A DNA stretch of 64,000 bases, taken from Coriobacteriia bacterium (GTDB lineage Bacteria > Actinomycetota > Coriobacteriia > Anaerosomatales > SLCP01). Below, in pieces: positions 10,104 to 48,100 of this stretch. The stretch is from contig JAUVXE010000009.1 in the NCBI GenBank assembly GCA_030603745.1, positions 1 through 64,000 of the forward strand, read 5' to 3'. The translations under genes and the position numbers were made by a program. The notes below the pieces were generated by a model. That model was not told the DNA's origin. It was given only the letters and a program-made list of their open reading frames with translations, and ran no database searches. Every line of letters starts with the position of its first letter. Within the stretch, counting starts at the first letter, position 1.

Positions 10104-10153
10104 CAGGCACGCTGTGCGTGTGGCACTATTCGTAGTGACACTCAGCGTGCCTG
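10104..10153 (+). terminator. Long imperfect hairpin with a UUCG loop between surface protein and glycosyltransferase genes
   Basis: CAGGCACGCTG (10104-10114) pairs perfectly with CAGCGTGCCTG (10143-10153). Inside, GTGT (10118-10121) pairs with ACAC (10138-10141), and CACTA (10124-10128) pairs with TAGTG (10133-10137) around a TTCG tetraloop, giving about 20 base pairs in total. There is no U-run after it, so a factor-independent terminator of unusual form, an RNA-processing site and a protein-binding palindrome are all possible. It lies 38 bp after the upstream stop codon. Confidence 0.55.
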
Positions 10154-10206
10154 CTCTCTGGAGGTGGACTATCAGTAGTCTTAGCGGCGGGACAGACCAG
10201 GGCAGT

Positions 10207-13205: not shown

Positions 13206-13207
13206 GT

Positions 13208-15681: not shown

Positions 15682-15855
15682 CGGCGGATCCGGTTCGTCG
15701 CGGTCGGTTCGTTCGGGCTGCGTTTCCGGGTCCCACTCTAGTCCACAGGCGGCCCGACAGCCACGGCCGCGCGACGGCGGATCGTGCCGGTGGCGATATC
15801 CCGGGTGTGGGACGATAATCGGGGAGCCGGTTGAGCGGCGCCGGCTGGGAGGCCG

Positions 15856-31063: not shown

Positions 31064-32137
31064 GTGAAGCGCAGGACCGCAGTTGTCATAGCCGGACTCG
31101 TGATGCTCACCGCGCTTGTCGCGGCGGCCCCCGCGTTCGCGTACGACGAGGTCGGCTCGGGGCGTAGCTGTTACGAATGTCACGGCCTCCTGCAGGGCGA
31201 GACCACGCAGACCGTCGGTTTCGTCGGCGAGCCCCGCAAGGGCCCGCACGGCGGCTACACCTCCACCACGAGCAAGTGCCGGACGTGCCATACCGTGCAC
31301 GCCGCGCCCGCCGAGGGCACCAAGCTCCTGCCCGCGGCCACCATCCGCTCGACCTGTGAGTCGTGCCACGACGGCACCGGCGGTCAGGGCGTCTACGGCG
31401 TGATCAAGGCGCGGACCGGTTTCGACCCGAGCACCGATCCGGGCGGCTCCGCCCACCGCATCGAGGCCGGCGTGACCGAGATCCCCGGCGGCTCCGCGAG
31501 CGGCGGGGTCCGCGAGGCGACCTTCTCGGGGCCCGGCGGTGCGCTCACCTGCAGTGACTGCCACTCGCCCCACGATGCCAACACGGTGGATCCGTTCATC
31601 GGCGACCGGTACCGCACGGCGGTCGGCGATCCGGACGCGAGCTACGGGGTGGCCAGCAACCGCCTCCTGCGCCAGCAGCCGGTCTCGGGCGACCTCGCCG
31701 TCGACGTGTACGGCGGTGGCTGGTGCGCGTCGTGCCATCAGGGGCACAACCCGATCAACGCCGTGAACCACCCGGTCCACCTCGATGACACGTACTACTA
31801 CGACAACGTCGCACGCTACGCAGGCCCGGGCGCCTACGACCTCGGCCCGCTCGGCCAGAGCAACGCCGGCTACGTGCTGCCTGACTGGCCCGTGGGTTAC
31901 GAGCCGATCTGCCAGCAGTGCCACGAGGACGTGCGCCGCGTGGGTCGCGTGACCCCGCGCGAGCTCGATGCGAGCGAGGCGTTCACCATCACCGGAGCCG
32001 ATGGCACCGTCGAGACTGACAACCCGCGCTTCCAGACGTTCCCGCACGAGAGCGAGGCGCCCGGGTTCCTGATCGTCGACACCGATGTCGACGGCATGGA
32101 CGCCCTCTGTCTCAACTGCCACACGATGGGCGGCTAG
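31064..32137 (+). CDS. Secreted heptaheme c-type cytochrome
   Basis: A 357-aa exported cytochrome. The signal peptide is clear (MKRRTAVVIAGLVMLTALVA, cleavage probably after PAFA). Seven CxxCH motifs are present: CYECH, CRTCH, CESCH, CSDCH, CASCH, CQQCH and CLNCH. The last lies six residues from the C-terminus. Spacing of the first three (CYECH…CRTCH…CESCH) is tight, and later ones are spread out with intervening beta-rich sequence. There is no membrane anchor, so it is either free in the wall space or bound to partners. It probably carries electrons between the membrane cytochromes and the giant surface cytochromes; this is inferred from position. Confidence 0.9.
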   Translation: MKRRTAVVIAGLVMLTALVAAAPAFAYDEVGSGRSCYECHGLLQGETTQTVGFVGEPRKGPHGGYTSTTSKCRTCHTVHAAPAEGTKLLPAATIRSTCESCHDGTGGQGVYGVIKARTGFDPSTDPGGSAHRIEAGVTEIPGGSASGGVREATFSGPGGALTCSDCHSPHDANTVDPFIGDRYRTAVGDPDASYGVASNRLLRQQPVSGDLAVDVYGGGWCASCHQGHNPINAVNHPVHLDDTYYYDNVARYAGPGAYDLGPLGQSNAGYVLPDWPVGYEPICQQCHEDVRRVGRVTPRELDASEAFTITGADGTVETDNPRFQTFPHESEAPGFLIVDTDVDGMDALCLNCHTMGG

Positions 32138-32352: not shown

Positions 32353-35300
32353 GTGGTGAAGGGGTCGCTGAGGCGGCGCCTGGCGGCAGCCGGCGTCGCA
32401 GTGGTGCTGGTCGTCGGGCTGCTTGTCGGCGCCGGCGCGGGGGATGCAGGAGCATCGCTCACCTCGCTCGTCATCGGAGGGGACCGTCCGCTGTCGGTCG
32501 ACATCTCCGGCACCCGCGTGGTCTGGGCCGACCGCTCGAGCGGAGCGGACGTCTACGACGTCTTCCTCTACGACGGCAGGTCCGGCATCACCACCCGGCT
32601 CACCGACGGAACCCGTGACGACCTCCAGCCCCGGATCGACGGGGACACCGTCGTATGGGTCTCGTACTCCGTGAACGGAACCGGCGCCGACATCCACGCC
32701 TACGACATCCCCAGCAGGACGCTCCGCGTGGTCTGCGAGGATCCCGGCGACCAGGTCGCCCCGGCACTCTCCGGGCGCTGGGTCGTGTGGGAGGACCGCA
32801 GCACCGGATACGCCCCCTCGGTCCGCGCAGCCGACCTCGCGACCGGCACGCGCTTCACCGTCGCCTCCTCTCAGAGCCAGCCCAAGCGCCGTCCGGCGGT
32901 GGGCGGGAACGTGGTGGTGTTCGAGGACTACCCGCGCGGCTCCGCCTTCGACGCCGACGTGGTCGCTTTCGACCTGTCGAGCCGGACGGTGCTCACGCGG
33001 ATCGGCGACGCCTCGGCGGGTGAGCTCAGGCCCGACACCGACGGCACGTTCGTGGTCTGGGAGCGCGCCGAGACCGACGGCGTCCGGGACATCGCGGGCA
33101 TGAACCTCGCAACGGGCGTGACCTTCACGGTGGCCGAGGGAGCCGCCGAGCAGGCGGTGCCCGCGGTCGACTCCGGCGTCGCTTACTGGTTCGAGAACGC
33201 CGCGGGCAAGCGGCTCGGCGTGCTCAGCCGCGCGCTCCCGGCCGGCGCCGCGCGGCCCGTCAACACGTTCGGCTCCGGCCGGGGGGCGCTGGGGGCGTAC
33301 GCGGCCGGCGGCGGAGGCGTCGCCTGGATCGAGAACACCGGCGACGGCAGGGTGGTGCGCGCGATACTCGGCGCCCCGAGCGCGGGCGGCTCCTCGGCCC
33401 TCGCGGACCTGCTGCCCACCGGGCCCGCGTGGCTGCCGTTCCGCCTCGCCCAGATCTCCACCGGCGGGGACGTCGAACCTCCCGCCGTGGTGGCCACGAA
33501 CGTGGAGCCGGGAGCGACGCTGGTAGACCCCGACGCCGCCTTCACGGTCAGCTTCTCCAAACCGCTCGACTCCGCCACGGTGAGCGCGACCTCGGTGACG
33601 CTCTCCTCGGCCGAGACCGGCGAGGCGATCGACGCGACCGTGCGCTACTCGGCGCTCTCTCGGTCGATCACGCTGACGCCCGAGGAGCCGCTCGGCGACG
33701 GGACCTTCGCGCTCGTGGTGGAGGACTCTGTCGCTGACACTTCGGGCAACACGCTCGAGGAGCCGGTGGAGATCGCGCTGTCGACCACGGTGACGCTCGC
33801 CGACACGACCGCCCCTCGTGTGCCGGGCACGGGCGGTGCTCGCGTGGCGGCGGAGGCCGGCCAGGATGCCGTCGAGGTGACGTGGGCCAAGCCGTGGGAC
33901 AACGTCGGCGTGACCGAGTACCTCATCTACGCGCATACGGCGCCGATGACGCTCACCACCATCAACACACTCGGCCTGACACCCGTCGCGACCGTCGCGA
34001 CGGATCCCGCCACGCCGGTGGGCGCTCCCGAGGCGGCGATCGTGTCGGTGCCCGGCGCGCGTGACTCCAAGTTCACCTACTACTACGCGATCCGCGCCCG
34101 CGACGGCGCGGGCAACGTGTCAGCACTCTCGGCCAACCGGGTCGCGGACCCGCACGGCACCAACGTCTTCGGCGCGAACCTCAACACCTGCACCATGTGC
34201 CACGGCGTGCACGGCTCGACCGGCGGCGGGACCGGCGTGATGTCGGCCGGCCGCCTCGCGGCACGCAGCGCAGAGGCCTGCTTCACGTGCCATGGCGGTA
34301 CCGCCTTCGCGACCGCGTACGGGCACGGCTCGTCGATCGACGTCCAGGCGCGGTTCTACAGCTACGAGAGCTCGCCGTTGCCCGAGGAGGGCTCGCAGCA
34401 CCGCAACGAGTACATGGTGTCCCAGCAGCAGGAGTGCGACGCCTGCCACACGCCCCACAAGAAGCCCTACGACGGGGTGGCGGCCAACAGCTTCAACAAG
34501 CTGCTCAAGCGACAGACGGGCACAGGCCTGGCCTACAACACCGATGCGGCACCTTTTGGCAATCAGTTCTGCTTCAGCTGCCACGGCACGTCGATGGCCG
34601 CGATCGCCGACGTGGGTGGCGCCGATGCCTACGCCAACACCGCCGGCGACCATAACGCCGCGGCTTTCGACACCGACCCCTCGGTCGCGCATGGCTCGGC
34701 GAACGTGTTCCCGACGCGGCTGCCCTCCGAGGCCGGGCCGCAGATCAGCTGCACCGCGTGTCACAACGAGCACGCCTCTCCGGTGGCCCGCCTGATCGAC
34801 TACCGGGGCACCAGCACCGCGGACAGGAACTTCGATCAGGCCGAGCTGTGCTTCGAGTGCCACAGCGGCTCGAGCACGGAGGCGCGGAGCGCCGGGAGCG
34901 CGCCGTTCGCGTGGAACAACCGTGACGTCAAGGCGGAGTTCGGGCGGGCCGAGAGCGGCGGCTCGTCGCACCCGGTCTCGATCACCGGCCCCGAGTACGT
35001 GCTCACGAGCGACGCGGTCTTCTCGCAGACCTTGGTTGCCGAGTTCTTCACGAACACGCACTTCCAGACCCGGGCCACAACGGGCGACGGCGGAGGGTCG
35101 ATCGAGCTCGACACGTATGTCGAATCCGATCCGCCGCCGCTGACGGTGATCTACGGGCAGGAGGGGTCCGACCGCAACAACTTCGCCCGCTACGCGCCCG
35201 GAGACAACACATGGTCGGGACTCGGCCGTGCCGAGTGGGCTCCGGGGAGCGGGTCGACCTCGGTGTTCATCGACGACAAGCTCTACATGACGCGGGGCGG

Positions 35301-37980
35301 AGGCTCGAACAGCCGGGCCGTCTACGACCCTGCGACCGGTATGTGGAGCGGCACCACGAACGCGGGTGCCAACATCGGCGTGGGCGGTGACGCGGCACAG
35401 GATGCCGCTCGCTCGTTCGTGTACCTGACGCGTGCCGGGAACTCGAACGTGATCATGAAGTGGCGCTACAGCGACGACACGTTCCAGACGGCGATCAACT
35501 TCCGGGACAACGGCGGTGTGAACCAGTCCCTGGGTGCGGGCTCCGCCATCGCCTTCGTTCCGGGCAGTGGTGACGGGCGCCTGTTCGTTGTCAATCGCAA
35601 CGGGGGCGCGAACGACGGACGCCTCTACTACACCGCTTCCCCCTACAACAAATCGGGCAACGTCAACTTCACCCAGGGCCCGCAGGTCACTTCGTCAGGC
35701 ACGACCGCGTATCACACGCGCATGGCGCGCGCCAACGTCAGCGGCACCGAGTACCTGTTCATCCTCGGCAGGAACGCGTCGAACACGCGCAACCTGCAGG
35801 TGGTCGCCAACGTCCTCGGAACGCCCACGCTCACCCAGGTCCCGCAGTACCCCTTTGGCACCAACGACCTCGGCGACGGCTGCCAGCTGATCTGGGACGG
35901 CGGGCAGTACCTCTACGCGCTCCGCGGCGGCGGCGCCACCGGCTTCTCGCGCATCGCCATCCCCGAGAACCCCGCGAACGCGGCCTCCTGGGGCGCGTGG
36001 CAGTCGCTCGCCGGCCCCGCGTGGGGATCCACGTGGGCCGCAGGCTCCTCTATCGCGGTCGGGTCCTACGACCCCCCGCCGGTCGAGGTCCACTTCGCGA
36101 GCGGTACGGCAACGACCGCGGCGATCTCGGCGCCGGGGACCCCTGTCTCGTGGGGCGCCGCCTCGTGGGTGGCCGAGGTCCCCTCGGGAACCGCGCTGAC
36201 CGTGACCGCGCAGGGCTTCACCGGCTCGACATGGGTCCCGCTCGCCTCCAGCGCGACGTCCCCGATCGATCTGAGCGGCTTCTCGAAAGCCGCGTATCCT
36301 GAGGTCCGACTCGTGGCGAGTCTGTCCACGGCGGATTCCTACGTCTCCCCCCGCATCGACGAATGGCAGGTGACGGCGACCTTCGAGCAGCGCGTGGAGG
36401 TCGGCCAGCTCTCCTGCTATTCGTGTCATAACACGCACTACGTGAAGAAGGGCACCGCCGGTCAGGCGTGGCAGATGTCCCGCGCCTCGGATCCGGCGAA
36501 CACGCGCACCGCCTTCACCGGCACAAGCACCGACTTCTGCCTGCGCTGCCACGGGGGCAGCGTCCCGCAGGCGGTCGTGAGCGCGGGCACGCTCGTCCCG
36601 TACGACGTCGAGTTCCGCGAGAAGTCCGCCGATGAGTTCCCGTACTTCTTCGGCTGGAACAAGCAACTGCCCGGGGCGCGTTTCACCGAGTCGTCGCACT
36701 TCACGACCGCCGGGACCAAGGCGCTCTGCCAGAACTGCCACGACCCGCACGCCTCGGACTTCAACCGGCTCGTGTCCTGGACCCGGCCGGCGAGCTGGGC
36801 GACGGGCAACGCCGGCACGCGGGCAAACACCGGCGCGGGGACCCTCGGCCAGGTGAACATCTGCTATCAGTGCCACGGTGACGGCACGAACAACACCAAG
36901 CTCGCCCCGGGCGCAAAGAATGTCTATACGGCCGCCCGTCAGGCCTACAGCCACCCGATCTCGCTCAGCCAGGCAGCGGTCGACGCGAAGCACAGCGGAG
37001 CCGAGTCACCGGTCGACCTCGGGGCTGCGAACCGCCATGCCGAGTGCAACGACTGTCACGACCCGCACGCCGCGAAGAAGGTCGGCGGCAGCCCGCTCCA
37101 CGTCCAGGGCACCTCGACCGCGGGCGGGGCACTGGTGGGAGCCGTGGGCGTGAAGCCGGTCTGGACGTCGGGCCAGTGGTCCGGGGCGACCTCGTATGAG
37201 CGGGTCCGCATCTCCGGGGCGGCGGCTGACTACGAGGCCTACGTCTGCTTCAAGTGCCACACCGGCAACACGAACCTGCCGAGCGGCAAGCGCGACTTGA
37301 GCTTCGAGTTCAACCCGGCGAACGAGTCGGGCCACAACGTGATCGGCAACGTCTGGCCCAAGACCGCCGGGCTCGGGCCCACGGGGACCTACACCTTCGG
37401 CTTCCCGGCGACCCGCGTATTCGCCGCGGGCTGGAACGAGAACTCGATGATGACCTGCTCGGACTGTCACACCTACTCGACCACCGGCGCCCGCGGTCCG
37501 CACGGGTCGAACGTCGCGTTCATGATCGACCCGGCGTACCCGAACCCGTACCGCAACGACCCCGCCCGCGGATCGAGCAACAACGCGCAGTTGAGCTCGG
37601 GCTCCCCGACGGGCATGTCGATGAGCAACGGTGGGGGCAGGGCGAACATCATCTGCGAGAAGTGCCACGTGATCTACTCCGGTGGTGGCTGGGCCCATGC
37701 GGCGCACGCAGACCATCGTCGGGGGGCGAACGGCGGATACTGCAACTTCTGCCACTCGCCGGTTCCGCACGGCTGGGTCCGCCCGCGCCTGCTTGCCTAC
37801 CGCAGCGATCCTGAACCGTACCGGACGATTCCCGGCGGCCTGACACGCATCACGCTCCGCAACTACACGCCGTCGAGCTGGAGCAACAAGGACCTCTGTG
37901 GCGCCGAGTGTTCGACGGGACGCCATCCGCTCAACGAGCCGTTCCCGAACAACGATTCGCCCACGCTGTCCTGGCCGTAG
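32353..37980 (+). CDS. Giant secreted 15-heme c-type cytochrome with beta-propellers and Ig/FN3 domains
   Basis: 1875 aa from a GTG that follows GGGGAGG. After the signal peptide (1-35) come a TolB-like propeller (about 40-370), an SbsA-type Ig-like domain (385-475), an FN3 domain (490-600), a first heme cluster of six CxxCH (residues 613-838), a kelch-like propeller (about 930-1235), a beta-sandwich (1243-1345), a second cluster of nine CxxCH (1355-1800) and a C-terminal module (1651-1875) ending in CGAECSTGRHPLNEP. No anchor is visible. The propeller, sandwich and C-terminal module recur in the 43-site protein at 41,188. It is likely an extracellular electron carrier whose folded non-heme domains provide binding or spacing. 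Confidence 0.9.
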   Translation: MVKGSLRRRLAAAGVAVVLVVGLLVGAGAGDAGASLTSLVIGGDRPLSVDISGTRVVWADRSSGADVYDVFLYDGRSGITTRLTDGTRDDLQPRIDGDTVVWVSYSVNGTGADIHAYDIPSRTLRVVCEDPGDQVAPALSGRWVVWEDRSTGYAPSVRAADLATGTRFTVASSQSQPKRRPAVGGNVVVFEDYPRGSAFDADVVAFDLSSRTVLTRIGDASAGELRPDTDGTFVVWERAETDGVRDIAGMNLATGVTFTVAEGAAEQAVPAVDSGVAYWFENAAGKRLGVLSRALPAGAARPVNTFGSGRGALGAYAAGGGGVAWIENTGDGRVVRAILGAPSAGGSSALADLLPTGPAWLPFRLAQISTGGDVEPPAVVATNVEPGATLVDPDAAFTVSFSKPLDSATVSATSVTLSSAETGEAIDATVRYSALSRSITLTPEEPLGDGTFALVVEDSVADTSGNTLEEPVEIALSTTVTLADTTAPRVPGTGGARVAAEAGQDAVEVTWAKPWDNVGVTEYLIYAHTAPMTLTTINTLGLTPVATVATDPATPVGAPEAAIVSVPGARDSKFTYYYAIRARDGAGNVSALSANRVADPHGTNVFGANLNTCTMCHGVHGSTGGGTGVMSAGRLAARSAEACFTCHGGTAFATAYGHGSSIDVQARFYSYESSPLPEEGSQHRNEYMVSQQQECDACHTPHKKPYDGVAANSFNKLLKRQTGTGLAYNTDAAPFGNQFCFSCHGTSMAAIADVGGADAYANTAGDHNAAAFDTDPSVAHGSANVFPTRLPSEAGPQISCTACHNEHASPVARLIDYRGTSTADRNFDQAELCFECHSGSSTEARSAGSAPFAWNNRDVKAEFGRAESGGSSHPVSITGPEYVLTSDAVFSQTLVAEFFTNTHFQTRATTGDGGGSIELDTYVESDPPPLTVIYGQEGSDRNNFARYAPGDNTWSGLGRAEWAPGSGSTSVFIDDKLYMTRGGGSNSRAVYDPATGMWSGTTNAGANIGVGGDAAQDAARSFVYLTRAGNSNVIMKWRYSDDTFQTAINFRDNGGVNQSLGAGSAIAFVPGSGDGRLFVVNRNGGANDGRLYYTASPYNKSGNVNFTQGPQVTSSGTTAYHTRMARANVSGTEYLFILGRNASNTRNLQVVANVLGTPTLTQVPQYPFGTNDLGDGCQLIWDGGQYLYALRGGGATGFSRIAIPENPANAASWGAWQSLAGPAWGSTWAAGSSIAVGSYDPPPVEVHFASGTATTAAISAPGTPVSWGAASWVAEVPSGTALTVTAQGFTGSTWVPLASSATSPIDLSGFSKAAYPEVRLVASLSTADSYVSPRIDEWQVTATFEQRVEVGQLSCYSCHNTHYVKKGTAGQAWQMSRASDPANTRTAFTGTSTDFCLRCHGGSVPQAVVSAGTLVPYDVEFREKSADEFPYFFGWNKQLPGARFTESSHFTTAGTKALCQNCHDPHASDFNRLVSWTRPASWATGNAGTRANTGAGTLGQVNICYQCHGDGTNNTKLAPGAKNVYTAARQAYSHPISLSQAAVDAKHSGAESPVDLGAANRHAECNDCHDPHAAKKVGGSPLHVQGTSTAGGALVGAVGVKPVWTSGQWSGATSYERVRISGAAADYEAYVCFKCHTGNTNLPSGKRDLSFEFNPANESGHNVIGNVWPKTAGLGPTGTYTFGFPATRVFAAGWNENSMMTCSDCHTYSTTGARGPHGSNVAFMIDPAYPNPYRNDPARGSSNNAQLSSGSPTGMSMSNGGGRANIICEKCHVIYSGGGWAHAAHADHRRGANGGYCNFCHSPVPHGWVRPRLLAYRSDPEPYRTIPGGLTRITLRNYTPSSWSNKDLCGAECSTGRHPLNEPFPNNDSPTLSWP
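37303..37977 (+). repeat. Shared C-terminal cytochrome module, copy in the 15-heme protein
   Basis: Residues 1651-1875 begin FEFNPANESGHN and contain three CxxCH motifs, IDPAYPNPYR, SPTGMSMS, IICEKCH, VPHGWVRPRL, GGLTRITLR and CGAECSTGRHPLNEP. The 43-site protein ends with the same sequence of elements (45,811-46,470), clearly homologous along the whole length. Confidence 0.88.
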
Positions 37981-38002
37981 CGCCCGAGCGACAGACCGAT
38001 CC

Positions 38003-38036
38003 GCAGAGGGCGGAGCCCAGAGCCCCCGCCCTCTGC
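38003..38036 (+). terminator. Strong hairpin after the 15-heme cytochrome gene
   Basis: GCAGAGGGCGG (38,003-38,013) pairs perfectly with CCGCCCTCTGC (38,026-38,036) around a 12-base loop, 22 bp after the stop codon. No U-run follows, so it may be an imperfect terminator or an mRNA-stabilising end that lowers expression of the lipoprotein and maturation genes relative to the cytochrome. Confidence 0.55.
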
Positions 38037-38056
38037 ATGCCTCCCGGAGGAGCGGC

Positions 38057-38596
38057 ATGACCTACGCGCACAGGACCATCCTCGTCGCCGCCGTGGCGCT
38101 CGGCCTGCTGGTAGGGCTCGCGGGGCTCGCGGGGTGCAGCCGCGCGGCGACCGGTGATCCGGACAACGACGTGGTGGTCCCCGACCGGGTCATTCCTGCC
38201 GACCCGGACCTCTCCGCTCCCGAGCCAGCGGTCCGCTCGTACCTGGAGTGGGTGTCCTTCGCGTACCGCATGGCCAACTCAGACATCCCCACCGCGACCA
38301 TGACCCCGTGGCAGGCGGTGCGCATCGACGCCTACATCGAGCTCAACCGCCAGAACGGGGAGGGGATCGACCAGGAGCTGCTCGCCTTCGTAGTGCGTTC
38401 GAGCTCGGAGGACGCCACCTCGGCGGTGGTCGCCGCCGACGAGCGTTGGCGCTTCCGCTACTTCGGCCTCAACACCCTGCGCTACACCTCCGATCCGCTC
38501 GAGGTGAGCTACGAGACCACCTACACCCTGACCCTTGTGGGTGACCGTTGGCTCGTGGACCAGGTCGAGGCCGAGCCGCTCGGGCCGCTGGAGTAG
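38057..38596 (+). CDS. Small lipoprotein of unknown function
   Basis: A 179-aa protein with a lipoprotein signal peptide: hydrophobic stretch LVAAVALGLLVGLAGLAG and lipobox LAGC with the lipidated cysteine near residue 27. The mature part has a mixed alpha/beta pattern with RSYLEWVSFAYRMANSDIPT and a final antiparallel strand pair (VSYETTYTLTLVGDRWLVDQ). This resembles NTF2-like/SnoaL-type lipoproteins that accompany exported proteins, but I cannot name a family. It carries no heme motif. The start is preceded by CGGAGGAGCGGC. It sits between a giant cytochrome and resB, so a role in assembly is possible. Confidence 0.75.
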   Translation: MTYAHRTILVAAVALGLLVGLAGLAGCSRAATGDPDNDVVVPDRVIPADPDLSAPEPAVRSYLEWVSFAYRMANSDIPTATMTPWQAVRIDAYIELNRQNGEGIDQELLAFVVRSSSEDATSAVVAADERWRFRYFGLNTLRYTSDPLEVSYETTYTLTLVGDRWLVDQVEAEPLGPLE

Positions 38597-38599
38597 GCG

Positions 38600-40003
38600 G
38601 TGGCGCGCACCCGGGGCTCCTCGGCGATCAGACGGCTCTTCCGTTCCCCGCGCACGGCCGCGTGGCTGCTCGTACTCCTCGGCGTGTGGATGGGGCTCGC
38701 GACCGCCGTGCCGCAGGGAGCGCTCACCGACCCCGACGTCGCCGCGTGGCGGGCCGCGTATCCCGTGCTCGCCTCGGCGGCCTCGTTCCTCGGCCTGCAC
38801 CGCGCCTATGTCGCGCCGCTCTTCCTCGCGCTCGTCGCCCTCCTCGCGCTCTCGACCGCGGTGTGCTCGTGGGAGCGCACCCGCACCGCGCTCGCCGCAT
38901 GGCGCTCCGTGGGCGTCGTCGATCCGGCCCGGGTCCGCCGCCTCGAGGAGTCCCCCGCGTTCGTGGTCGACCTCGCCGGGAGCGCTGCGGCCGACCCGCT
39001 CGAGTCCGCCGGGGAGGCGCTGCGTTCCCTCGGATTGCGGGTACGCCGGGGCCCGCGCCTCGCCGAGGCGTACAGCGGCGCCTGGTCGCGGTTCGCGAGC
39101 CCGCTCTTCCACTGGTCGCTCGTGGGCCTGTTCGTCGCCATCCCGCTCGGCCAGCTCACGATGGCGAACGGACTGCTCGGCGTGCCGGTCGGCGGCGTCG
39201 TGCTCGACGAACCCTCCGCGTACGGGCTGCTGGAGCGCGGGCCGCTCAACCGGTCGCTCAGCGGTCTTGCGGTGGGCGTCGAGGAGATGCCCCTCGCGTT
39301 CGAGGCGGCAGGGGTGGACCGGGGCGCGGCACCCCTGGTGACCCTCGCGACCCGCGACGGATCCGAGGTCGCCCGGGGACACGTGTACCCCAACGCGCCA
39401 CTCAGGCACGGCGCCCTCGTGGTGCACATGAGCGACTACGGACTCGTCGTGCGCGTCTCGCTCGTGGACGCCGGGGAGCCGGTCGCCGAGACCGAGCTGC
39501 TCCTCGACTTCGATGACGACGCGGCCGACGGCACCACCACCGGCGAGATCGGCCTCTACGCCGAGGACGACTCGAACATCGCCTCCGTGCGCGTGGGCGC
39601 CGTGCTCGAGCGCACCCCGGACGGGCTCGTCTACCGCAACCTGCCGGCTGACCCGCGGGTCCGTCTCGGCCTGACCGACGCGCGAACCGGCGAGGTCGTG
39701 AGCGCGGAGCTCGGTGTCGGCGAGACGATCGAGACGCCGGCGGGGACGCTGCGGGTCGAGCACCTCGGCTACTATGCGAGACTGTCGATCGTCGAGGACC
39801 GCACGGTGCCGATCGTCTACGCGCTCCTCACGATCGCCTCGATCGCCGTGGGGGTGGCGCTGCTCGTGCCGCACCGCTCGGTGCTCGTGCTGCTGGCCGG
39901 CGAGTCCGGCGCGCGGCGCCTGCACGTGTCGGTGCGCGGCGGCAGGCAGGACCCGGACTTCGCAGGACGCGTCCGAGACGCGCTGGAAGGGGAGGGACGA
40001 TGA
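38600..40003 (+). CDS. resB: ResB-like system II cytochrome c biogenesis protein
   Basis: A 467-aa protein with the ResB/Ccs1 layout: membrane helices near residues 20-40, 70-95 and 165-185, a large extracytoplasmic domain (about 190-390) and a last helix around 415-435. The N-terminal FRSPRTAAWLLVLLGVWMGL resembles the start of ResB proteins. With the CcsA/ResC partner (overlap of 4 bp), it moves heme to the outside and attaches it to CxxCH motifs. It begins with GTG three bases after the lipoprotein stop. Placement among cytochromes needing dozens of hemes suggests a dedicated maturation pair. Confidence 0.88.
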   Translation: MARTRGSSAIRRLFRSPRTAAWLLVLLGVWMGLATAVPQGALTDPDVAAWRAAYPVLASAASFLGLHRAYVAPLFLALVALLALSTAVCSWERTRTALAAWRSVGVVDPARVRRLEESPAFVVDLAGSAAADPLESAGEALRSLGLRVRRGPRLAEAYSGAWSRFASPLFHWSLVGLFVAIPLGQLTMANGLLGVPVGGVVLDEPSAYGLLERGPLNRSLSGLAVGVEEMPLAFEAAGVDRGAAPLVTLATRDGSEVARGHVYPNAPLRHGALVVHMSDYGLVVRVSLVDAGEPVAETELLLDFDDDAADGTTTGEIGLYAEDDSNIASVRVGAVLERTPDGLVYRNLPADPRVRLGLTDARTGEVVSAELGVGETIETPAGTLRVEHLGYYARLSIVEDRTVPIVYALLTIASIAVGVALLVPHRSVLVLLAGESGARRLHVSVRGGRQDPDFAGRVRDALEGEGR

Positions 40004-40830
40004 CGCTCGAGATCGTGCTGATGTGGACGGCCGTGACGCTCTACGCGGCCTCATCGGTCGTGTTCGTGGTGGCGACGGTGTTCGTGCGCCCGCGACTCGA
40101 CGACGTCGCGCTCTGGATCGGGCTCGCGGGGCTCGTCCCCCACGCGGTCGCGATCGGGGTCCGGTGGGAGCGCGTCGGGCACGGCCCGTACCTCGGCTTC
40201 TACGAGGTCGTCTCCTCCTACGCGTTCATCTCGGTCGCCGCTCTCGGCCTCATCGCGTGGCAGCGCCGGTCGCTCGCCCGCGTGGGCGTGCTCCTCATGC
40301 CGATCGCGTTCCTCATGCTCGGAGCATCGATGTTCACGCCGAGGGCCGACCTCGAGATCACCGCGACCCTCGCCTCGTGGTGGCTCACCATCCACGTGGC
40401 CTTCGCCAAGCTCTGCTACGGGGCGTTCGTCGCGTCGTTCGCCCTCGCGTTGCTCTACCTGGCCCGGGGCCGGGCGACCGGACTCCTCGCCGAGGCACTC
40501 GAGCGCCTGCCCCGGCAGGAGGTCATCGACGACCTCGTCTACCGGTTCGTCGCCGTGGGCTTCGTGTTCCTCGGCATCATGATCGTCGCCGGGGCGATCT
40601 GGGCGAACGAGGCGTGGGGGCGGTACTGGGCGTGGGATCCGATCGAGACGTGGTCGCTCATCTCGTGGATCGTCTACGCGCTCTATCTGCACGCGCGCCT
40701 GCTCCTGGGCTGGCGCGGGCGGCGGTCCGCGTGGTTCGCGGTCGCGGCGCTGCCGGTCGTGCTCTTCGCCCTCATCGGCGTACCGCTCGTGTACAACTCG
40801 ATCCACGGGGCGTACCTGCAGGGGTTCTGA
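40000..40830 (+). CDS. ccsB: CcsA/ResC-type cytochrome c biogenesis (heme handling) protein
   Basis: A 276-aa integral membrane protein of the heme handling family with about eight helices. It carries the tryptophan-rich heme-binding segment WGRYWAWDPIETWSLISW and conserved flanking histidines (for example TIHVAFAKLCYGAFV and YLHARLLLGWRG). Together with ResB it forms the system II heme export and ligation complex. The ATG overlaps the resB stop by 4 bp. The family is universal in system II organisms; here it is embedded in the cytochrome locus. Confidence 0.93.
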   Translation: MTLEIVLMWTAVTLYAASSVVFVVATVFVRPRLDDVALWIGLAGLVPHAVAIGVRWERVGHGPYLGFYEVVSSYAFISVAALGLIAWQRRSLARVGVLLMPIAFLMLGASMFTPRADLEITATLASWWLTIHVAFAKLCYGAFVASFALALLYLARGRATGLLAEALERLPRQEVIDDLVYRFVAVGFVFLGIMIVAGAIWANEAWGRYWAWDPIETWSLISWIVYALYLHARLLLGWRGRRSAWFAVAALPVVLFALIGVPLVYNSIHGAYLQGF

Positions 40831-40882
40831 GGCGGCAGGCGGCCGGAGCGGATCCGGCGCCACACCACGGGTGTGCTGGGCG

Positions 40883-40900
40883 TGTTATGCAACGTTAACA
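40883..40900 (+). promoter_or_regulatory. Inverted repeat TGTTA-N8-TAACA upstream of the 43-site cytochrome promoter
   Basis: An interrupted dyad in the gap after the ccsB stop, about 30 bp upstream of the -35 element at 40,930. Half-sites of this type are used by CRP/FNR-family and other dimeric regulators, but the spacing (N8) does not fit the FNR or CRP consensus. An activator or repressor site is possible. Confidence 0.35.
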
Positions 40901-40929
40901 GACTTAAGAAGCCTGAGCCGCTCAACCTC

Positions 40930-40959
40930 TTGACCTGCGTCAATTCCGAGGAGCATAAT
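40930..40959 (+). promoter_or_regulatory. Sigma-70-type promoter for the 43-site cytochrome gene
   Basis: TTGACC (40,930-40,935) and CATAAT (40,954-40,959) are separated by 18 bp, the best -35/-10 pair in the window. A start near 40,966 would give a leader of about 220 nt before the GTG at 41,188. The leader contains a GGTGAC/GTCACC hairpin (40,979-40,996) and the structured element at 41,048-41,128. Confidence 0.65.
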
Positions 40960-41047
40960 CCGCCCGAGCCATGTCCGTGGTGACAGTCCCGTCACCAAGG
41001 GGCCGGATGTGGAGCGAATCGGAAGCGTTGATCCATCGTCCGCGAAA

Positions 41048-41128
41048 CTGGGCACCTGGGCGAGGGGGAGCGAGTGGTGCAACCGGCCGTGTCGCAGCGG
41101 CCGGCTTTTTTGTTGTCCGGGTGCCCAG
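41048..41128 (+). ncRNA. Candidate structured leader RNA, copy B
   Basis: CTGGGCACCTGG (41,048-41,059) pairs with CCGGGTGCCCAG (41,117-41,128) in a 12-bp closing stem with one G-T pair. Inside are GGGGGAGCGAGTGGTGCAACCGG (in part 41,064-41,086) and a terminator hairpin. The internal block and the CAGCCCAT overlapping the 3' arm also occur in the element at 6670-6777. Copy B lies between a good promoter and the cytochrome start, the layout of a riboswitch or attenuator. I could not match it to the GEMM, ydaO, cobalamin or other classes I can recall. Confidence 0.5.
41083..41110 (+). terminator. Intrinsic terminator inside the leader of the 43-site cytochrome gene
   Basis: CCGGCCG (41,083-41,089) pairs perfectly with CGGCCGG (41,098-41,104), followed by C and six T residues. 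This is the only textbook rho-independent terminator seen in the window. It lies within the leader, 77 bp before the start codon and downstream of the promoter at 40,930, so it would stop transcription before the gene unless overcome. Confidence 0.75.
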
Positions 41129-41187
41129 CCCATCAGCAGAGGCCCGCCGCACACCGTAGGCATGACGCCGAGCAGGGGAGCGGGCTA

Positions 41188-44100
41188 GTGGGTAAACGGA
41201 TTCTGTTCATGGCCGGGGTCGCGGCGCTGCTGATCGCGCTGTCTGCCACCATCGCGTTCGCCGAGGTCCCCTCGGCGCCCTTCGAGACCAACAGCCAGTG
41301 TCTCGACTGCCACGATGTCGCCGCCGGCGGGCCGGTGCTGAGCACCGTCGACTTCCGCGCGCCGGGCGAGGTCGACTACAACCGCTGCGCCACCTGTCAC
41401 CTCGGGCTCCCGGACCAGATCATCTTTCGCGGCGAGCCCGCGCTGACCCACTATCACGCGGCGTTCGAGTGGTGCGGAGACTGCCACACGGATGACTTCG
41501 ACCCGATCTTCGCGCTGCCCGTTGAGGGCCCGCGCGTCGACGGCTTCCTGACGCTGACGAGCTACGGGTTCTTCGCCGGGCTCGACTCCCTCGCGGCCTC
41601 TCCGGAGACCCTGCACGACGTGCACATGAACCCCAGCTGGGTCGAGTCGATGTTCTCCGCCGAGTACCCGCAGTGCTCGCGCTGCCACGCCTCGGCCGCC
41701 TGCAGCACCTGCCACACCGACGCCATCGCGCACGGCAGCCATGCGCTCCCCGACTATCCTGGCCTCGTCTACAAGCAGGCGACCGGCCTGACGTCCGTCA
41801 TCGCGCCCTCGACCTGCGTCGATCCGGCGTGCCACTCGCTCCTCTCGGCGGGGAGCACCGCGTTCAACGAGCCCTCGTGCCTCGGGTGCCATGAGGCGGC
41901 CGTCTTCGGCGAGATCCACGGCTACGACAGCGTGAACCACGTCGCGCCCGTCGCCGCCGAGGAGTTCGAGGGCGTCGAATGCGCGTCGTGTCACCACATG
42001 GACCTCATGACCGAGCACGAGAAGCCGACGTCGGTCTCGGCGGGTGGCAGCTGCTTCACCTGCCACCCCTCGCCGCGCGACACCTACGGCGCGTGGGAGC
42101 AGGGCTGCCAGCAGGGCGGCTGTCACGCTCCTGCTTCCGCAGCGGAGCCGCACGCCGCGATGGCCGCTGCCCACACGCCGCCCTCGGCTGCGGCGATCTG
42201 CGGTGAGTGCCACGGCGCGACGCTCGACAGCGCGCACCTCGGTGCGAGCACCGTGGTCGACGGCGTCACCCACGAGTCGTGCAACGTCTGCCACCGGCCG
42301 GACTATCTCGCCGGGACCGCCGACTGCACCAGCTGCCACTTCACCTTCGACGACCACTACGACGAGGCCGCCCACGAGAGCACCTGGTCGCTCGACGGCT
42401 GCATCGCCGAGGGCTGCCATACGAGCAACGCCCTGATGGCAGAGCATGAGGCCGCGCGGCCCGGTTTCACCTGCATGGACTGCCACGCCGCTCCGATGTC
42501 TGCCGATGCGATCGCCGCCGGGGACACCGCGTGCAACGCGTGTCACACGAGCATCGTCGAGAACGACGCGCACCGCGCGGTGCACTGGGCGCTGCCGCCT
42601 CTGGTGAGTGGGAGCTTCCCGAACATCCAGGGCAACTACAGCTACTACCTCGGCACCGCGGGCGGTGCGCGCACGACCGACTGCGCCGGGTGCCACACGT
42701 CCAACCTCGTGGACGAGCACATGGGTCTGCAGGATTCCGGTAACTGGATCAGGATGCCGAGGGGTGACCGTTCGGGCACGGCGTTCGACTGCGCGACCTG
42801 CCATAACTCGCTCGACCCGCAGGTGATGGGCGCGATCGCCCTGGACCGCACCGCGTGCGACGCCTGCCACACCGTGCACGGTCCGATCCCCGCGGTGCAC
42901 GCATCGGACTTCGTCGCGGACGCTCCGGTCGACTGCTCGGGCTGCCACTCGTCGGACCTGACCGTGGTGCACGGCGGGTTCATGACCACCGTGACCGACA
43001 CCGGCCGGACGCTCGCCGGTTGCGACATCTGCCACGGCTACTACGACTCCGACGGTGCGCGGGGCGTGGAGGTCCGGGACGCGATCGCGGCGCGTGACAC
43101 CAGTTGCACCGCATGCCACGCGGAGTACCACGGCGACATGGCTGCCCACAAGGCGACCGCGTCCGCCTCGGCCGACGACTGCGGTCGCTGCCACGGCCCC
43201 GTCGTCGACGGCGAGCTCAACGTCGAGCCGGTACACGCCGGCGCGTCGCTGGGCGCGTGCGCCGTCTGCCACGCCAATCCCGCACGTATCCCCGACATCA
43301 CCTCCAGGACCGCCGAGTGTGCGAGCTGTCACGCGGTCGCCGGAGAGACGTACCACCGTGCAGCCACCGAGAAGCACACGTTCGGCGCGATGGACGCGGG
43401 CTGCCTCGGCGCCGGCTGTCACGTCGCCACCACACTGCCCGAGGAGCACGAGCGCTTCCTCGGCAGGTATGACGGGTACGCCGACACGTGCGCGCTCTGC
43501 CACCTCAACGACGATGCCGACCGCATCGACTGGGCCACCGCCTCAGCGGAGTGCTCGAGCTGCCACGAGGTGCACGGCGATATCGACGAGCTGCACGCCG
43601 CGCCCGGCTCGCAGGAGTGTGTCGACTGCCACGCGAGCAGCGACGTCCGCGATCTGCACGGGCAGAGCCCGGCGGCCTCCTGCGCGGTCTGCCACAACAG
43701 CGAGGTCGACACGAGCGGGACCGCCGCGTGCGTGAACTGCCACGACTACTCGCCTGTGGCCGAGAAGCACTACCGCATCGAGCCTCACGAGTCCGGGGAG
43801 TCCGCGGCGTGCGCGTCGTGCCACCACCTCGAGCTCGTGACCGAGCACGAGCGCATCGACGAGCCGGTCGACTGCGTGGGCTGCCACACGGTCGACGGGT
43901 TCCCCGCTCCGTGGGACGGCACGTGTGGCTCGTGTCACCCGCAGATCCACGGTAACCTCGGCGACAAGCACGTCTCCGAGAGCGCGGGCTGCGGCGGCGA
44001 CGGTTGCCACATGATCGGCGACGCGTCGAGCGTCCATGCGGCGCTTCCCCAGAGCGGCTGCTGGGCGTGTCACACTCCGCTCTCGGCCGATGTCACCTGG

Positions 44101-46473
44101 GGTGCGCTCAGCTGGACCGGCGTGGTGCCGACCGGCGCGTCGCTCAGCTTCGACGTACAGGGTCGCGTGAACGGCTCCTGGCAGACGATCCCGGGCCACG
44201 CGGGTCTGAGCGGCATGAGCATCGACCTGTCCCGTATCGATCTGGCTGTCTATCCCAAGCTGCGGATCGTCGCGCACTTCGCCGCCGACCCCACGCTCGC
44301 CAAGACCCCGCGTATCGATTCGTGGGCGGTGACCGTGCGCAAGGCGATCGGTGACGAGCCCGAGAGCGAGCGCATCGTGTTCAGCCAGACCGCGGTCGCC
44401 GAGTTCGAGCAGAACGAGCTCGTGCAGACCGTCGCCAGCCCCGAGTTCGGCACGGGGGCACTCGTGCTGGGGACGCAGGGCGGATCGAGCTCGGTCACCA
44501 CGGCCGACCTCCTCTTCGCACAGGTCGGCCGCAGGACGGGCGAGTACTTCCAGTACCTGCCAGCGGAGAACGCATGGAACCAGGCGAACTCGGCAGGGTT
44601 CCGGCCGTCGAGCCAGTCGTTCTTCGAGCCGCGCAAGGGGGCGACCCTGGTTGCGGCGGACGGGAAGCTCTACCTGTCGCGCGGCGACGGGAACCGGGAT
44701 CGCGCCGTCTACACCCCGCCCCCGGCCGGCGGGACCACGGGCTCCTGGCAGCGGGCGTCGAGCGCTTCGCACACGCTGAACCGCGGATCGGACGCGGCTG
44801 TCGACCCCGTGCGTGATCGTGTGTACTACACGCGGGGTGGCGAGCAGAAGGAGATCCTCCGGTGGCGCCCGTCCACGGACACGTGGGACTCGGCCATCAA
44901 CTTCAGGATCGGCTGGAGCGACCGCTCACTGAGTGTCGGCTCCGCGATCGCGTACTCCGCCTCGGCCGACCGACTCTTCGTCATCAACCGCAACCGCACG
45001 AGCGGTGACGGACGACTCTACTACCTGGCCGCGCCGTCAACCAAGAGCGGGAACCAGAACTTCACCTCGACCGGCGTCCAGGTGACGCTGAGCGGGAGCA
45101 GCGAGCGCTGGAACCGTATGGTGAGCGCGTCGGTGGGTGGCAACGAGCATCTGTTCATCCTCGGCCAGGACAGCGGGGACCGCAGCGAGTTCCAGGTCGT
45201 CTCGAACCTCGGCGCGAGCACGCCGACCCTCACCAAGGTCGGGCGGTACCCGTTCCCGAGCCGGCTCGGAGAGGGCGCGGACCTCGTGTGGGACGGTGGT
45301 CAGTATCTCTACGCCATCCCCGGCGCGGATCGGTGGGAGTTCGCCCGCATCCGGATCCCCTCCAACCCTGCGAGCGCGTCCGCGTGGGGCGCGTGGGAGC
45401 TCCTGACCCCGCCTGCCGACTCGAGCAGCCGCCAGTGGCGTGAGGGCTCGTGCATCGGGTTCCTGCCGTTGCTCGTGGAGGGTCCGTCGACCGCCAGCTA
45501 CTATCCGGCGGGCAGCGTGACCACGCTTGGCATCATGCCGCAGGGCGACACCCGGGCGACCACCGACTGCCTCAGCTGTCACGCGGCTTCTGAGGACGGT
45601 CACCGCTCGGCCCACGAATCGGTGTCGCACAACCCCAAGGGCTGCGGCGGGTGCCACTACACCAACCTGGTGGACGAGCACGAGATGGCCGGCTACGGGT
45701 GCCAGGCGTGCCACTCCTCGGCGAGCGCGGTCGTGCTGGGCGCGATCGCGTCCGGTGACCAGCGCTGCCTCACCTGCCATCCGGATTCGCCTCACAACAA
45801 GCGGCAGGCGTTCGAGTTCAATCCCGCCAACGCCTCGGGACACAACATCGACTCCAACGTCTGGCCCAAGACGTCGTTCGTCGTGAACGGTCAGAACTAC
45901 AGCGTCGGGTTCCCCACGTCGAACGTGTTCACGGCCGGCTGGAACCAGGACTCGGTCATGACGTGCGAGAGCTGCCACACCTACGACAAGAGTCAGGCCA
46001 CCGGGCCGCACGGCGGTCAGGCCGTGGTGAACATCGATCCGGCGTATCCGAATCCCGTTCGCGATCTGGGCCGGGGCGAGGCGAACACCGCACAGCTCTC
46101 GAAGAACTCCCCGACCGGCATGAGCATGAGCAAGTCGGGCAGCCAGCCCGCCAAGATCATCTGCGAGAAGTGCCACGACCTCTACAACGGCAGCAGTTGG
46201 AGCAACATCGCCCACAAGGAGCACGACGACCGTGGACGCAACGGCGCCTACTGCAACCACTGCCACGTGGCGGTCCCGCACGGTTGGGTTCGGCCGAGGC
46301 TGATCGGCTACCGGAGCGACCCGGCGCCGTATCGGACCTCGCCCGGCGGTCTGACGCGTATCACGCTCCGCTCGTACACGCCCAGCACGTGGAGCGGAAA
46401 GGACCTCTGCGGAGCCGAATGCTCGACCGGGCGCCACCCGCTGAACGAGCCGTACCAGCGGTCCTGGCCATAG
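41188..46473 (+). CDS. Giant secreted multiheme cytochrome with 43 candidate heme-binding motifs
   Basis: 1761 aa from the GTG at 41,188, which follows CAGGGGAGC and starts a clear signal peptide (cleavage after IAFA). I count 38 CxxCH and five CX4CH motifs (CVDPACH, CQQGGCH, CIAEGCH, CLGAGCH, CGGDGCH). Thirty-six lie in residues 38-962, about one per 26 residues, with many extra histidines as likely distal ligands. A beta-sandwich (about 965-1055), a kelch-like propeller (1105-1430) and seven more motifs (1461-1693) follow. The C-terminus matches that of the 15-heme protein. There is no anchor. The heme density suggests a conductive wire-like N-terminal part for long-distance extracellular electron transfer. 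Confidence 0.92.
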   Translation: MGKRILFMAGVAALLIALSATIAFAEVPSAPFETNSQCLDCHDVAAGGPVLSTVDFRAPGEVDYNRCATCHLGLPDQIIFRGEPALTHYHAAFEWCGDCHTDDFDPIFALPVEGPRVDGFLTLTSYGFFAGLDSLAASPETLHDVHMNPSWVESMFSAEYPQCSRCHASAACSTCHTDAIAHGSHALPDYPGLVYKQATGLTSVIAPSTCVDPACHSLLSAGSTAFNEPSCLGCHEAAVFGEIHGYDSVNHVAPVAAEEFEGVECASCHHMDLMTEHEKPTSVSAGGSCFTCHPSPRDTYGAWEQGCQQGGCHAPASAAEPHAAMAAAHTPPSAAAICGECHGATLDSAHLGASTVVDGVTHESCNVCHRPDYLAGTADCTSCHFTFDDHYDEAAHESTWSLDGCIAEGCHTSNALMAEHEAARPGFTCMDCHAAPMSADAIAAGDTACNACHTSIVENDAHRAVHWALPPLVSGSFPNIQGNYSYYLGTAGGARTTDCAGCHTSNLVDEHMGLQDSGNWIRMPRGDRSGTAFDCATCHNSLDPQVMGAIALDRTACDACHTVHGPIPAVHASDFVADAPVDCSGCHSSDLTVVHGGFMTTVTDTGRTLAGCDICHGYYDSDGARGVEVRDAIAARDTSCTACHAEYHGDMAAHKATASASADDCGRCHGPVVDGELNVEPVHAGASLGACAVCHANPARIPDITSRTAECASCHAVAGETYHRAATEKHTFGAMDAGCLGAGCHVATTLPEEHERFLGRYDGYADTCALCHLNDDADRIDWATASAECSSCHEVHGDIDELHAAPGSQECVDCHASSDVRDLHGQSPAASCAVCHNSEVDTSGTAACVNCHDYSPVAEKHYRIEPHESGESAACASCHHLELVTEHERIDEPVDCVGCHTVDGFPAPWDGTCGSCHPQIHGNLGDKHVSESAGCGGDGCHMIGDASSVHAALPQSGCWACHTPLSADVTWGALSWTGVVPTGASLSFDVQGRVNGSWQTIPGHAGLSGMSIDLSRIDLAVYPKLRIVAHFAADPTLAKTPRIDSWAVTVRKAIGDEPESERIVFSQTAVAEFEQNELVQTVASPEFGTGALVLGTQGGSSSVTTADLLFAQVGRRTGEYFQYLPAENAWNQANSAGFRPSSQSFFEPRKGATLVAADGKLYLSRGDGNRDRAVYTPPPAGGTTGSWQRASSASHTLNRGSDAAVDPVRDRVYYTRGGEQKEILRWRPSTDTWDSAINFRIGWSDRSLSVGSAIAYSASADRLFVINRNRTSGDGRLYYLAAPSTKSGNQNFTSTGVQVTLSGSSERWNRMVSASVGGNEHLFILGQDSGDRSEFQVVSNLGASTPTLTKVGRYPFPSRLGEGADLVWDGGQYLYAIPGADRWEFARIRIPSNPASASAWGAWELLTPPADSSSRQWREGSCIGFLPLLVEGPSTASYYPAGSVTTLGIMPQGDTRATTDCLSCHAASEDGHRSAHESVSHNPKGCGGCHYTNLVDEHEMAGYGCQACHSSASAVVLGAIASGDQRCLTCHPDSPHNKRQAFEFNPANASGHNIDSNVWPKTSFVVNGQNYSVGFPTSNVFTAGWNQDSVMTCESCHTYDKSQATGPHGGQAVVNIDPAYPNPVRDLGRGEANTAQLSKNSPTGMSMSKSGSQPAKIICEKCHDLYNGSSWSNIAHKEHDDRGRNGAYCNHCHVAVPHGWVRPRLIGYRSDPAPYRTSPGGLTRITLRSYTPSTWSGKDLCGAECSTGRHPLNEPYQRSWP
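45811..46470 (+). repeat. Shared C-terminal cytochrome module, copy in the 43-site protein
   Basis: Residues 1542-1761 begin FEFNPANASGHN and repeat the element order of the 15-heme protein: NVWPKT, AGWNQDSVMTCESCH, IDPAYPNP, SPTGMSMS, IICEKCH, VPHGWVRPRL and CGAECSTGRHPLNEP. Roughly three of five residues agree along about 220 positions by eye. Confidence 0.88.
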
Positions 46474-46669: not shown

Positions 46670-48100
46670 TTGGCGGACCACGACATCGCACGGGGCGATC
46701 TCGAGCAAACAGGGTCGAGCGAAGACGAGGGGCGAACTCGTGCCTGGCCGCTCCTGCTCCTGTTGCTTCTCCTGCTCCTGTGCGCCGTCATCACGATCGT
46801 CGACACGGTCATCGATCGCGGACCCGACAGGGCACGCTTCATCGCACGCAACCTCGAGTGTCTGCAGTGCCACACCGAGCTGATCCCCGAGCTCTCGATG
46901 GCGTCCGTGCACAGCCCGTTCCTGCTTGAGGACTGTACCGTGTGCCATACGCCACACGGCAAGGAGGTCGAGAGGACGCTCATCTCGGGCTCGACGAGCA
47001 CCTTCCAGCGCGTGCGCACCGTGATCGAGTGGCTTCCGCTCCGCTGGATCCTCTCGACCTGGGACTCCGTCACCGGCGTGACCGAGACCGACGCCGGAGG
47101 CCGGGTCGTCTCGCGGACGACCGAGGAGGTGCCGGGTGGCCGCTCTGAGCTGACCGCGCCCGCTGACGAGCTCTGCTGGATCTGCCACGGGAACCTCGGC
47201 GCCGAGCTCGGGATGGCCTACCAACACGCGCCCTTCACCAACGGGAACTGTCTCGACTGCCACGCGCCCCATGCGTCCGACTGGCAGGGGCTGCTCGCGC
47301 AGGACCCGCGCGATCTGTGCATGACGTGCCATGGGAGCATCGGAGCGCAGATGGCCCGGCAGCAGCTGCACGCGCCGGTGGAGAGCCGCTTCTGCACCGA
47401 CTGCCACCTTCCGCACGCGTCCGAGTGGAAGGGCATCCTCACGCAGCGCCAGCGAGACCTCTGTTTCACGTGCCATCCGTCGGTGGCCTCGCTCAGCCGC
47501 ATGCCCGTGCAGCACCAGCCGTTCGAGTTCGACAACTGCACCGGGTGCCACGAGCCGCACGGCTCAGACTATGTGCCGCTGCTGATCGACGCGGAGCCGC
47601 GCGTGTGCTACCTCTGCCACGCCGACATCGAAAGCGACTTCGGCAGGGTGAGCGTGCACCCCGTGGGCACCGCACAGCTCAACTGCTCGGACTGCCACGA
47701 CCCGCACGCCGCGCAGTACGAGGCGCTCCTCGCCGCGCGCGACAACGAGATGTGTTACCAGTGCCACCGCGAGGGCCTGCAGGTCACCTACGACGCCTCC
47801 GACCACGGCCGCCTGCTCTGCGTGCGGTGTCACACCCCGCACGGTTCGGATTTCCGGCCGATCCTGCGCGACGCCAACCCGGACATCTGCCTCACCTGTC
47901 ATGGCTGGGTCGAGGCACACGACAACCAGCACCCCGTCAGGCCGGTGTACTATGATGTGAGGGCCGGCACGCCGATGACGTGCACGTCGACCTGTCACGG
48001 GCCGCACGGCACCGAGTTCCCGATGATGGTGCGGTTCGTCCCGTGGCCGTTCGACGGCCGCTGCTTGCAGTGTCACAGCAGGGTAGGAATCGATTTCTAG
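46670..48100 (+). CDS. Membrane-anchored multiheme cytochrome with doubled CxxCH repeats (15 heme motifs)
   Basis: 476 aa. The only sensible start is a TTG at 46,670 just after GGAGGAG; no ATG or GTG occurs in the first 25 codons. One membrane helix (about 27-48, Leu-rich) is followed by 14 CxxCH and one CX3CH motif (CTSTCH). The motifs alternate as in the doubled-CxxCH family: LCWICHGNLG…NCLDCHAPHAS, LCMTCHGSIG…FCTDCHLPHAS and so on, each unit about 45 residues with CH-x-PH[AG]S. It would sit in the membrane facing the wall and pass electrons from the NapC-type protein outward. It is followed 23 bp later by that gene. Confidence 0.9.
   Translation: MADHDIARGDLEQTGSSEDEGRTRAWPLLLLLLLLLLCAVITIVDTVIDRGPDRARFIARNLECLQCHTELIPELSMASVHSPFLLEDCTVCHTPHGKEVERTLISGSTSTFQRVRTVIEWLPLRWILSTWDSVTGVTETDAGGRVVSRTTEEVPGGRSELTAPADELCWICHGNLGAELGMAYQHAPFTNGNCLDCHAPHASDWQGLLAQDPRDLCMTCHGSIGAQMARQQLHAPVESRFCTDCHLPHASEWKGILTQRQRDLCFTCHPSVASLSRMPVQHQPFEFDNCTGCHEPHGSDYVPLLIDAEPRVCYLCHADIESDFGRVSVHPVGTAQLNCSDCHDPHAAQYEALLAARDNEMCYQCHREGLQVTYDASDHGRLLCVRCHTPHGSDFRPILRDANPDICLTCHGWVEAHDNQHPVRPVYYDVRAGTPMTCTSTCHGPHGTEFPMMVRFVPWPFDGRCLQCHSRVGIDF

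Follow-up and report, generated by a model that had tools for sequence, protein, structure and literature searches.

Two giant multiheme cytochromes, here called proteins A and B, are encoded close together in the window (the whole stretch of 64,000 nucleotides of DNA that was analysed), and their shared non-heme parts stand in opposite order. They are best explained as members of two old and separate cytochrome families: protein A with a nested module, and protein B as a heme array that has a circularly permuted copy of this module inserted between hemes 36 and 37. The probability of this reading is put at about three in four.

Both proteins have signal-like N-termini (judged by eye) and many heme-binding sites, and are predicted to be secreted multiheme c-type cytochromes, encoded side by side with maturation proteins (Table 1). 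Protein A has 15 CXXCH motifs, six before the module and nine after it. Protein B has 38 CXXCH and five CX4CH motifs, which give 43 sites, 36 before the module and seven after, and the counts of the original prediction (6+9 and 36+7) were upheld. CX4CH sites are also present in all orthologs of B, with four to nine in each. Above the Pfam cut-offs, PF14522 and PF22113 were found in both proteins, the latter matching only parts of them, and PF09699 in A only; neither the module nor the sandwich matched a Pfam family at cut-off, and PHROGs gave nothing useful. Genes for a Rex-like regulator and for TPR and NHL proteins are also located nearby. The start listed for B (nt 41074) is probably too early, and the more likely true start is the GTG at nt 41188, which directly precedes the signal peptide. 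Near its N-terminus, protein A carries beta-propeller-like repeats (TIGR04275, below cut-off) and an Ig-like Big_5 domain (nt 32470-33774). The A-type protein of one relative (G058) is as long as protein A, while most others are about 450 residues shorter.

Table 1. Features of the two giant cytochromes and of neighbouring genes, in order of position in the window.
Feature	Position (nt)	Strand	Details
7-heme secreted cytochrome	31064-32137	+	
Protein A	32353-37980	+	1875 aa, 15 CXXCH; N- to C-terminus: signal peptide, beta-propeller-like repeats, Ig-like domain, heme cluster 1, module, heme cluster 2, C-terminal module
A, heme cluster 1	34189-34863	+	6 CXXCH, residues 613-837
A, N-element [VI]FSQTxVAEF	35005-35136	+	residues 885-928; HMM 3e-13; outside kelch match
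A, predicted six-bladed kelch propeller (guest)	35140-36066	+	residues 930-1238 by HMM; 928-1241 by structural alignment
A, sandwich, first strand and body	36079-36390	+	residues 1243-1346; HMM 3e-33
A, heme cluster 2	36415-37755	+	9 CXXCH, last 3 inside C-terminal module T
A, C-terminal module T	37279-37980	+	residues 1643-1875; about 61-63% identity to T of B
ResB-like cytochrome c maturation protein	38600-40003	+	Pfam PF05140, 8e-34
CcsA-type cytochrome c assembly protein	40000-40830	+	Pfam PF01578, 1e-37
Protein B	41188-46473	+	43 heme sites; listed ORF 41074-46473 = 1799 aa
B, heme array, sites 1-36	41299-44073	+	
B, whole insertion	44074-45558	+	residues 1001-1495, linker between heme 36 and heme 37
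B, sandwich body without first strand	44074-44346	+	residues 1001-1091; HMM positions 4-83 of 85, 2e-21
B, N-element	44362-44475	+	about residues 1097-1134; HMM 7e-4, from position 6; BLASTP
B, predicted kelch propeller	44503-45465	+	residues 1144-1464 by HMM (2e-101); 1141-1468 by structural alignment
B, putative displaced first strand of sandwich	45496-45537	+	residues 1475-1488, YYPAGSVTTLGIM; PSSM test, alignment with other copies
B, heme sites 37-40	45568-45780	+	repeat family same as N-terminal array; aligned in orthologs
B, C-terminal module T	45790-46473	+	residues 1573-1799
14-heme cytochrome	46670-48100	+	N-terminal membrane segment

Comparison of A with B by BLASTP aligned the C-terminal module T at about 61% identity (1e-91), the propeller with its leading element at 45% identity over 364 columns (1e-74), and the sandwich at 38% identity over 81 columns (2e-11). 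The predicted homology of propeller, sandwich and C-terminal module is therefore upheld, and pairwise comparison also confirmed the opposite order of the first two. In A the order is N-element, propeller, first strand, body, and in B it is body, N-element, propeller, first strand. At 45% identity, the module of B is, to judge from the sequences, not a recent copy of that of A. The same figure bears on the suggestion that an assembly or binning error fused parts of two genes in B, for which the state of the host genome (a 2.14 Mb draft in 28 contigs) gives some ground. Propellers that share only 45% identity are hardly likely to confuse an assembler, and B is one open frame of 1799 codons with a coding-type G+C by codon position, so that an error of this kind is the least probable of all the explanations considered.

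Both propellers are predicted to have the six-bladed kelch fold. The AlphaFold2 models of the module had a mean pLDDT of 93.6 for A and 91.8 for B, kelch chains ranked first or near first in Foldseek searches, and the propeller profile matched kelch sequences. Structural alignment by VIA-align of the A propeller with Keap1-type kelch domains gave Z scores of 27-28 (rmsd about 2.5, 258-270 residues), and that of B gave 26-27; the match lists were filled by the propeller, and the absence of the sandwich there carries no meaning. Foldseek matches to phage tail and sialidase chains were set aside for their high rmsd. The six-bladed fold of the Keap1/KLHL family is thus alike (Z 26-28), but identity to the propellers of A and B is only about 15%, and the latter are set in the sandwich of a bacterial cytochrome.

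The element [VI]FSQTxVAEF (the N-element) had been taken to introduce the propeller. This assignment was not sustained, as the kelch fold in the models of A and B starts after the element, which lies outside the structural match, and the element stays with the sandwich when the domain behind it changes. It is followed by a kelch propeller in 19 species, by a MAM/CBM_4_9-like guest of about 145 residues in four relatives (G033, G036, G072, G102), and by an F5/8C (discoidin)-like guest in G036, G039, G076 and G095. In G120 there is no guest, and the sandwich comes immediately after the element; the contig begins at the element, but the join is internal. Pfam PF00754 matched three of the four F5/8C guests above cut-off, that of G076 falling below it (24.6 vs 28.2 bits), while no Pfam match above cut-off was obtained for the MAM/CBM_4_9 guests (sub-threshold E 1e-2 to 2e-4; no match for G033). 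Since kelch, MAM/CBM-like or F5/8C-like domains, or nothing, can be found at this place, the N-element stays with the sandwich, and the gap between the element and the first strand is a guest site. The N-element is part of the sandwich, or at least tied to it, and is not the start of the propeller, which is a guest inserted in the sandwich between the N-element and the first strand. We propose that the element is the first hairpin of the host sandwich. Some copies of the sandwich have no N-element (the third copies in the G091 and G095 proteins, and copies in other classes), and it may be an add-on rather than a sandwich part. In B, the match to the element is weak by itself (HMM 7e-4). An A-type gene of G076 (L040, nt 5060-9338) lies in two overlapping frames that are split at the N-element, representing a frameshift, a pseudogene or a sequencing error.

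The sandwich has a wider distribution than these cytochromes. Its profile matched residues 1046-1150 of the DUF4815 protein ORF65 (PDB 9euf; E 2.8e-5), which has a C-terminal sandwich like that of A and B, but is not a cytochrome by its title, and shows no N-element in the aligned part. The profile also finds proteins elsewhere in the phylum, one of which (L099) has no heme sites. In this case (G499, nt 4046-10267, minus strand), the sandwich is outside the class and comes after repeats resembling another propeller.

Every resolved copy of the module outside B has the order seen in A (N-element, guest, first strand, body), and B is the sole protein found with the reversed order, a single permuted case from a draft genome. 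The sandwich body of B begins at the loop after the first strand; the strand is absent before the body, and a segment resembling it follows the propeller. In a PSSM test, the strand-like segment at residues 1475-1488 scored higher for the first strand than any other window of B, and it lies at the expected place. This score was matched by 0.8% of shuffles of that 35-residue region; when the whole protein was shuffled, 13% of the shuffles gave such a score at some position, the segment being short. AlphaFold2 modelled it as a strand (block pLDDT 95) behind a looser linker. The loop that follows the first strand is represented at both ends of the module of B (HTPLSADVTWG and GIMPQGDTRA), which fits an origin of the piece in a tandem array, where body, element, propeller and strand follow one another internally in just this order. 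The same segments in rotated order point to a circular permutation in which one sandwich loop was cut. In B, the displaced strand would pair with the body to give a completed sandwich fold, with which the secondary structure and pLDDT of the model agree.

The original prediction described the domains as shuffled. The reversal itself was borne out, but circular permutation with a cut inside the sandwich is preferred over free shuffling, in which sandwich and propeller would be independent, joined to B in two recombination events, and their order would be without structural meaning. Sandwich bodies do occur without a propeller in other contexts, and the trees do not unite the sandwiches of A and B, which lie on opposite sides of a 90/91 split (AU p 0.205); together, the propeller and sandwich trees leave the two parts of B without a settled common origin. 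Against this, the N-element and first strand stand on either side of the propeller of B as they do in every other copy, it is exactly this strand that the body is missing, and both parts are found together in one linker. Two independent joinings are considered unlikely on these grounds.

The site of insertion in B can be examined in its relatives. Relatives of the heme array were found in 33 of the 69 genomes of the order, and the module was not found in B orthologs. In the 15 orthologs where both flanks of the linker could be placed, hemes 36 and 37 are separated by 6-28 residues, mostly 8 (e.g. CSACHIGPDQPATTTECAVCH), compared to 495 in B, and the flanks align with those of B at 32-51% identity. 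A weak match to the propeller profile (0.006) in one ortholog lies in its CarboxypepD_reg/F5/8C tail and was taken as chance. One relative (G058) has the same gene order as the window (TPR, NHL, 7-heme, A, ResB, CcsA, B, 14-heme) with an uninserted B, and among the genomes compared the insertion is seen in this genome alone. In B, units similar to hemes 37-40 are found among hemes 1-36. This resemblance, and the module-free orthologs, indicate that the module entered a giant cytochrome that had until then been unbroken. By sequence comparison, its heme array belongs to an older giant-cytochrome family, with the 36+4 hemes forming one family.

These observations also bear on the proposal that heme blocks and adaptor domains had recombined to form the two proteins. 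Of this proposal, the modular character was supported and the joining of heme blocks was not. If B had been put together from two heme blocks, a large one at the N-terminus and one at the C-terminus, with adaptor domains between them, then heme clusters should flank the module, as they do in both A and B. Such an origin is nevertheless very improbable, because hemes 37-40 share a repeat family with hemes 1-36, and because the orthologs join the two parts by a short linker; loss of the module in all of them is unlikely given the many module-free lineages.

Protein B has the conserved heme array followed by module T that characterizes its family. In all 14 orthologs that could be read to their end, T is followed by a C-terminal tail, identified by Pfam as CarboxypepD_reg plus F5/8C (discoidin-like) in all three tested. 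This tail is absent from B, which has 72 residues after the last heme, while complete orthologs have 215-368. Since B ends after T where its orthologs continue, it is without one non-heme tip and carries another inside.

Matches to the module of A came from 20 of the 396 genomes examined in the class, and all 20 belong to the same order; the propeller was present in 19 of them. In the window's own family, the other eight genomes lacked the module. A scan of contigs with the module of A recovered no relative, and a scan with the protein of a relative recovered three. Relatives with an A-type protein include Coriobacteriaceae bacterium EMTCatB1, the Slackia sp. Tomsk_69_21 MAG and the Actinomycetota MAG 311FN.002. 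Judging from these relatives and from PMC9686372, the window probably belongs to, or near to, the order Anaerosomatales (OPB41). Most of the proteins mapped share one plan: six hemes, module, six or seven hemes, and T with three hemes. A giant protein of G091 has 51 sites, with 42 hemes before a module in the order of A. In G070 (L053, nt 7058-19900), one open frame of more than 4200 codons has only 22 heme sites, with the module near its end.

Tandem modules within single proteins were found in G018, G091 and G095. Those of G018 (L042, nt 6299-12319, minus strand) are identical at 1439 of 1461 bp (98.5%), which suggests that the duplication is recent, or else reflects an effect of assembly. 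The occurrence of tandem copies in several proteins of the order could also be accommodated if an old B had carried a tandem module that every ortholog has since lost, deletions at the two ends having shifted the register. As this needs many independent clean losses, each to the same short linker, very little credence is given to it. An exchange of T between A and B was considered, since one tree gave the two as sisters (99/98), but is not claimed after B orthologs were added, when AU p values were 0.543 for A-type sequences together, 0.558 for B-type together and 0.093 for A with B.

Entry of a permuted module into a pre-existing B remains the preferred reading, and the likely route would begin with a tandem duplication of the module, such as related species show, B then receiving a frame-shifted unit of it. 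Protein A would show the nested arrangement, in which the sandwich N-element is followed by an inserted six-bladed kelch propeller and then by the sandwich remainder, all between two heme clusters. In B, the permuted copy would have been placed in the linker of hemes 36 and 37 as body, N-element, propeller and first strand. Because the cut is in one sandwich loop, the new ends should lie close to each other, so that the module could bulge from an 8-residue linker and hemes 36 and 37 would not be pulled apart. The displaced strand could still complete the sheet of B.

Giant multiheme cytochromes are regarded as carriers that export electrons from Gram-positive and archaeal cells, and how they reach and hold their targets is poorly known. 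Signal-like N-termini, heme sites, maturation genes and the biocathode expression of multiheme genes in EMTCatB1 (see below) suggest extracellular electron transfer by A and B. Electron transport by the hemes would most likely run outwards (or inwards), with Fe(III), an electrode or a partner at the far end; the guest would probably be a docking domain, the non-heme module attaching the protein to a surface, glycan or partner. More tentatively, and at rather less than even odds, the sandwich may be a general socket of the surface cytochromes of this order, with one loop that takes exchangeable, target-setting binding domains, and circular permutation may be a means of mounting this socket sideways on an inter-heme linker of a heme wire that is otherwise continuous. 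The relatives provide a natural series, in which one heme array occurs both with a large side module and lacking it, and one sandwich bears different guests. Two questions thereby come within reach of a test: whether electron flow survives the insertion of about 490 residues between neighbouring hemes, and whether the guest determines binding. They also offer a natural case of a nested domain that was seemingly circularly permuted on its move to a new host, with tandem copies and insert-free sites still present in relatives.

In the available part of the report on Anaerosoma tenue and Parvivirga hydrogeniphila (Anaerosomatales, OPB41), members of the Coriobacteriia, 17-18 multiheme cytochromes are described, some of them clustered with a Rex-type regulator and genes for cytochrome c maturation, and the order is said to include an Fe(III) reducer (PMC9686372). 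A Rex-like gene, ResB and CcsA are likewise found beside the multihemes of the window, while guest domains, insertion and permutation are not described in that part of the report. EMTCatB1, from an electromethanogenic biocathode on which its multiheme genes are highly expressed (PMC7943316), has an A-type protein (contig BDLO01000001.1; L061, nt 10001-14253) and, if taken as G011, also a B-type array (L149). Its module is in canonical order, and its B ortholog lacks the insertion.

Among other Gram-positive surface cytochromes, OcwA of Thermincola and OmhA of Carboxydothermus are linked to Fe(III) reduction, but carry 9 and 11 hemes, and in the accounts available a propeller is not mentioned for OmhA. 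The decaheme plan of the MtrC/OmcA type (about ten hemes, two heme domains and two beta-barrel domains) differs from that of A and B, which have 15 and 43 sites in another arrangement. A parallel is found in the archaeal ANME cytochromes of MHC types A, B and C, giant multihemes fused to S-layer, peptidase M6-like and pectin-lyase-like domains, including mixed types (PMC9012536); their non-heme domains are different, and an inserted, permuted module is not described in the available part of that study. Kelch or discoidin domains in multiheme cytochromes were not described among the matches listed in the literature search, which left most subscription journals outside. Giant cytochromes with fused surface domains are therefore already known as a kind from ANME archaea, while the literature searched showed no precedent for a nested guest site or for a permuted module set into the linker between two hemes.
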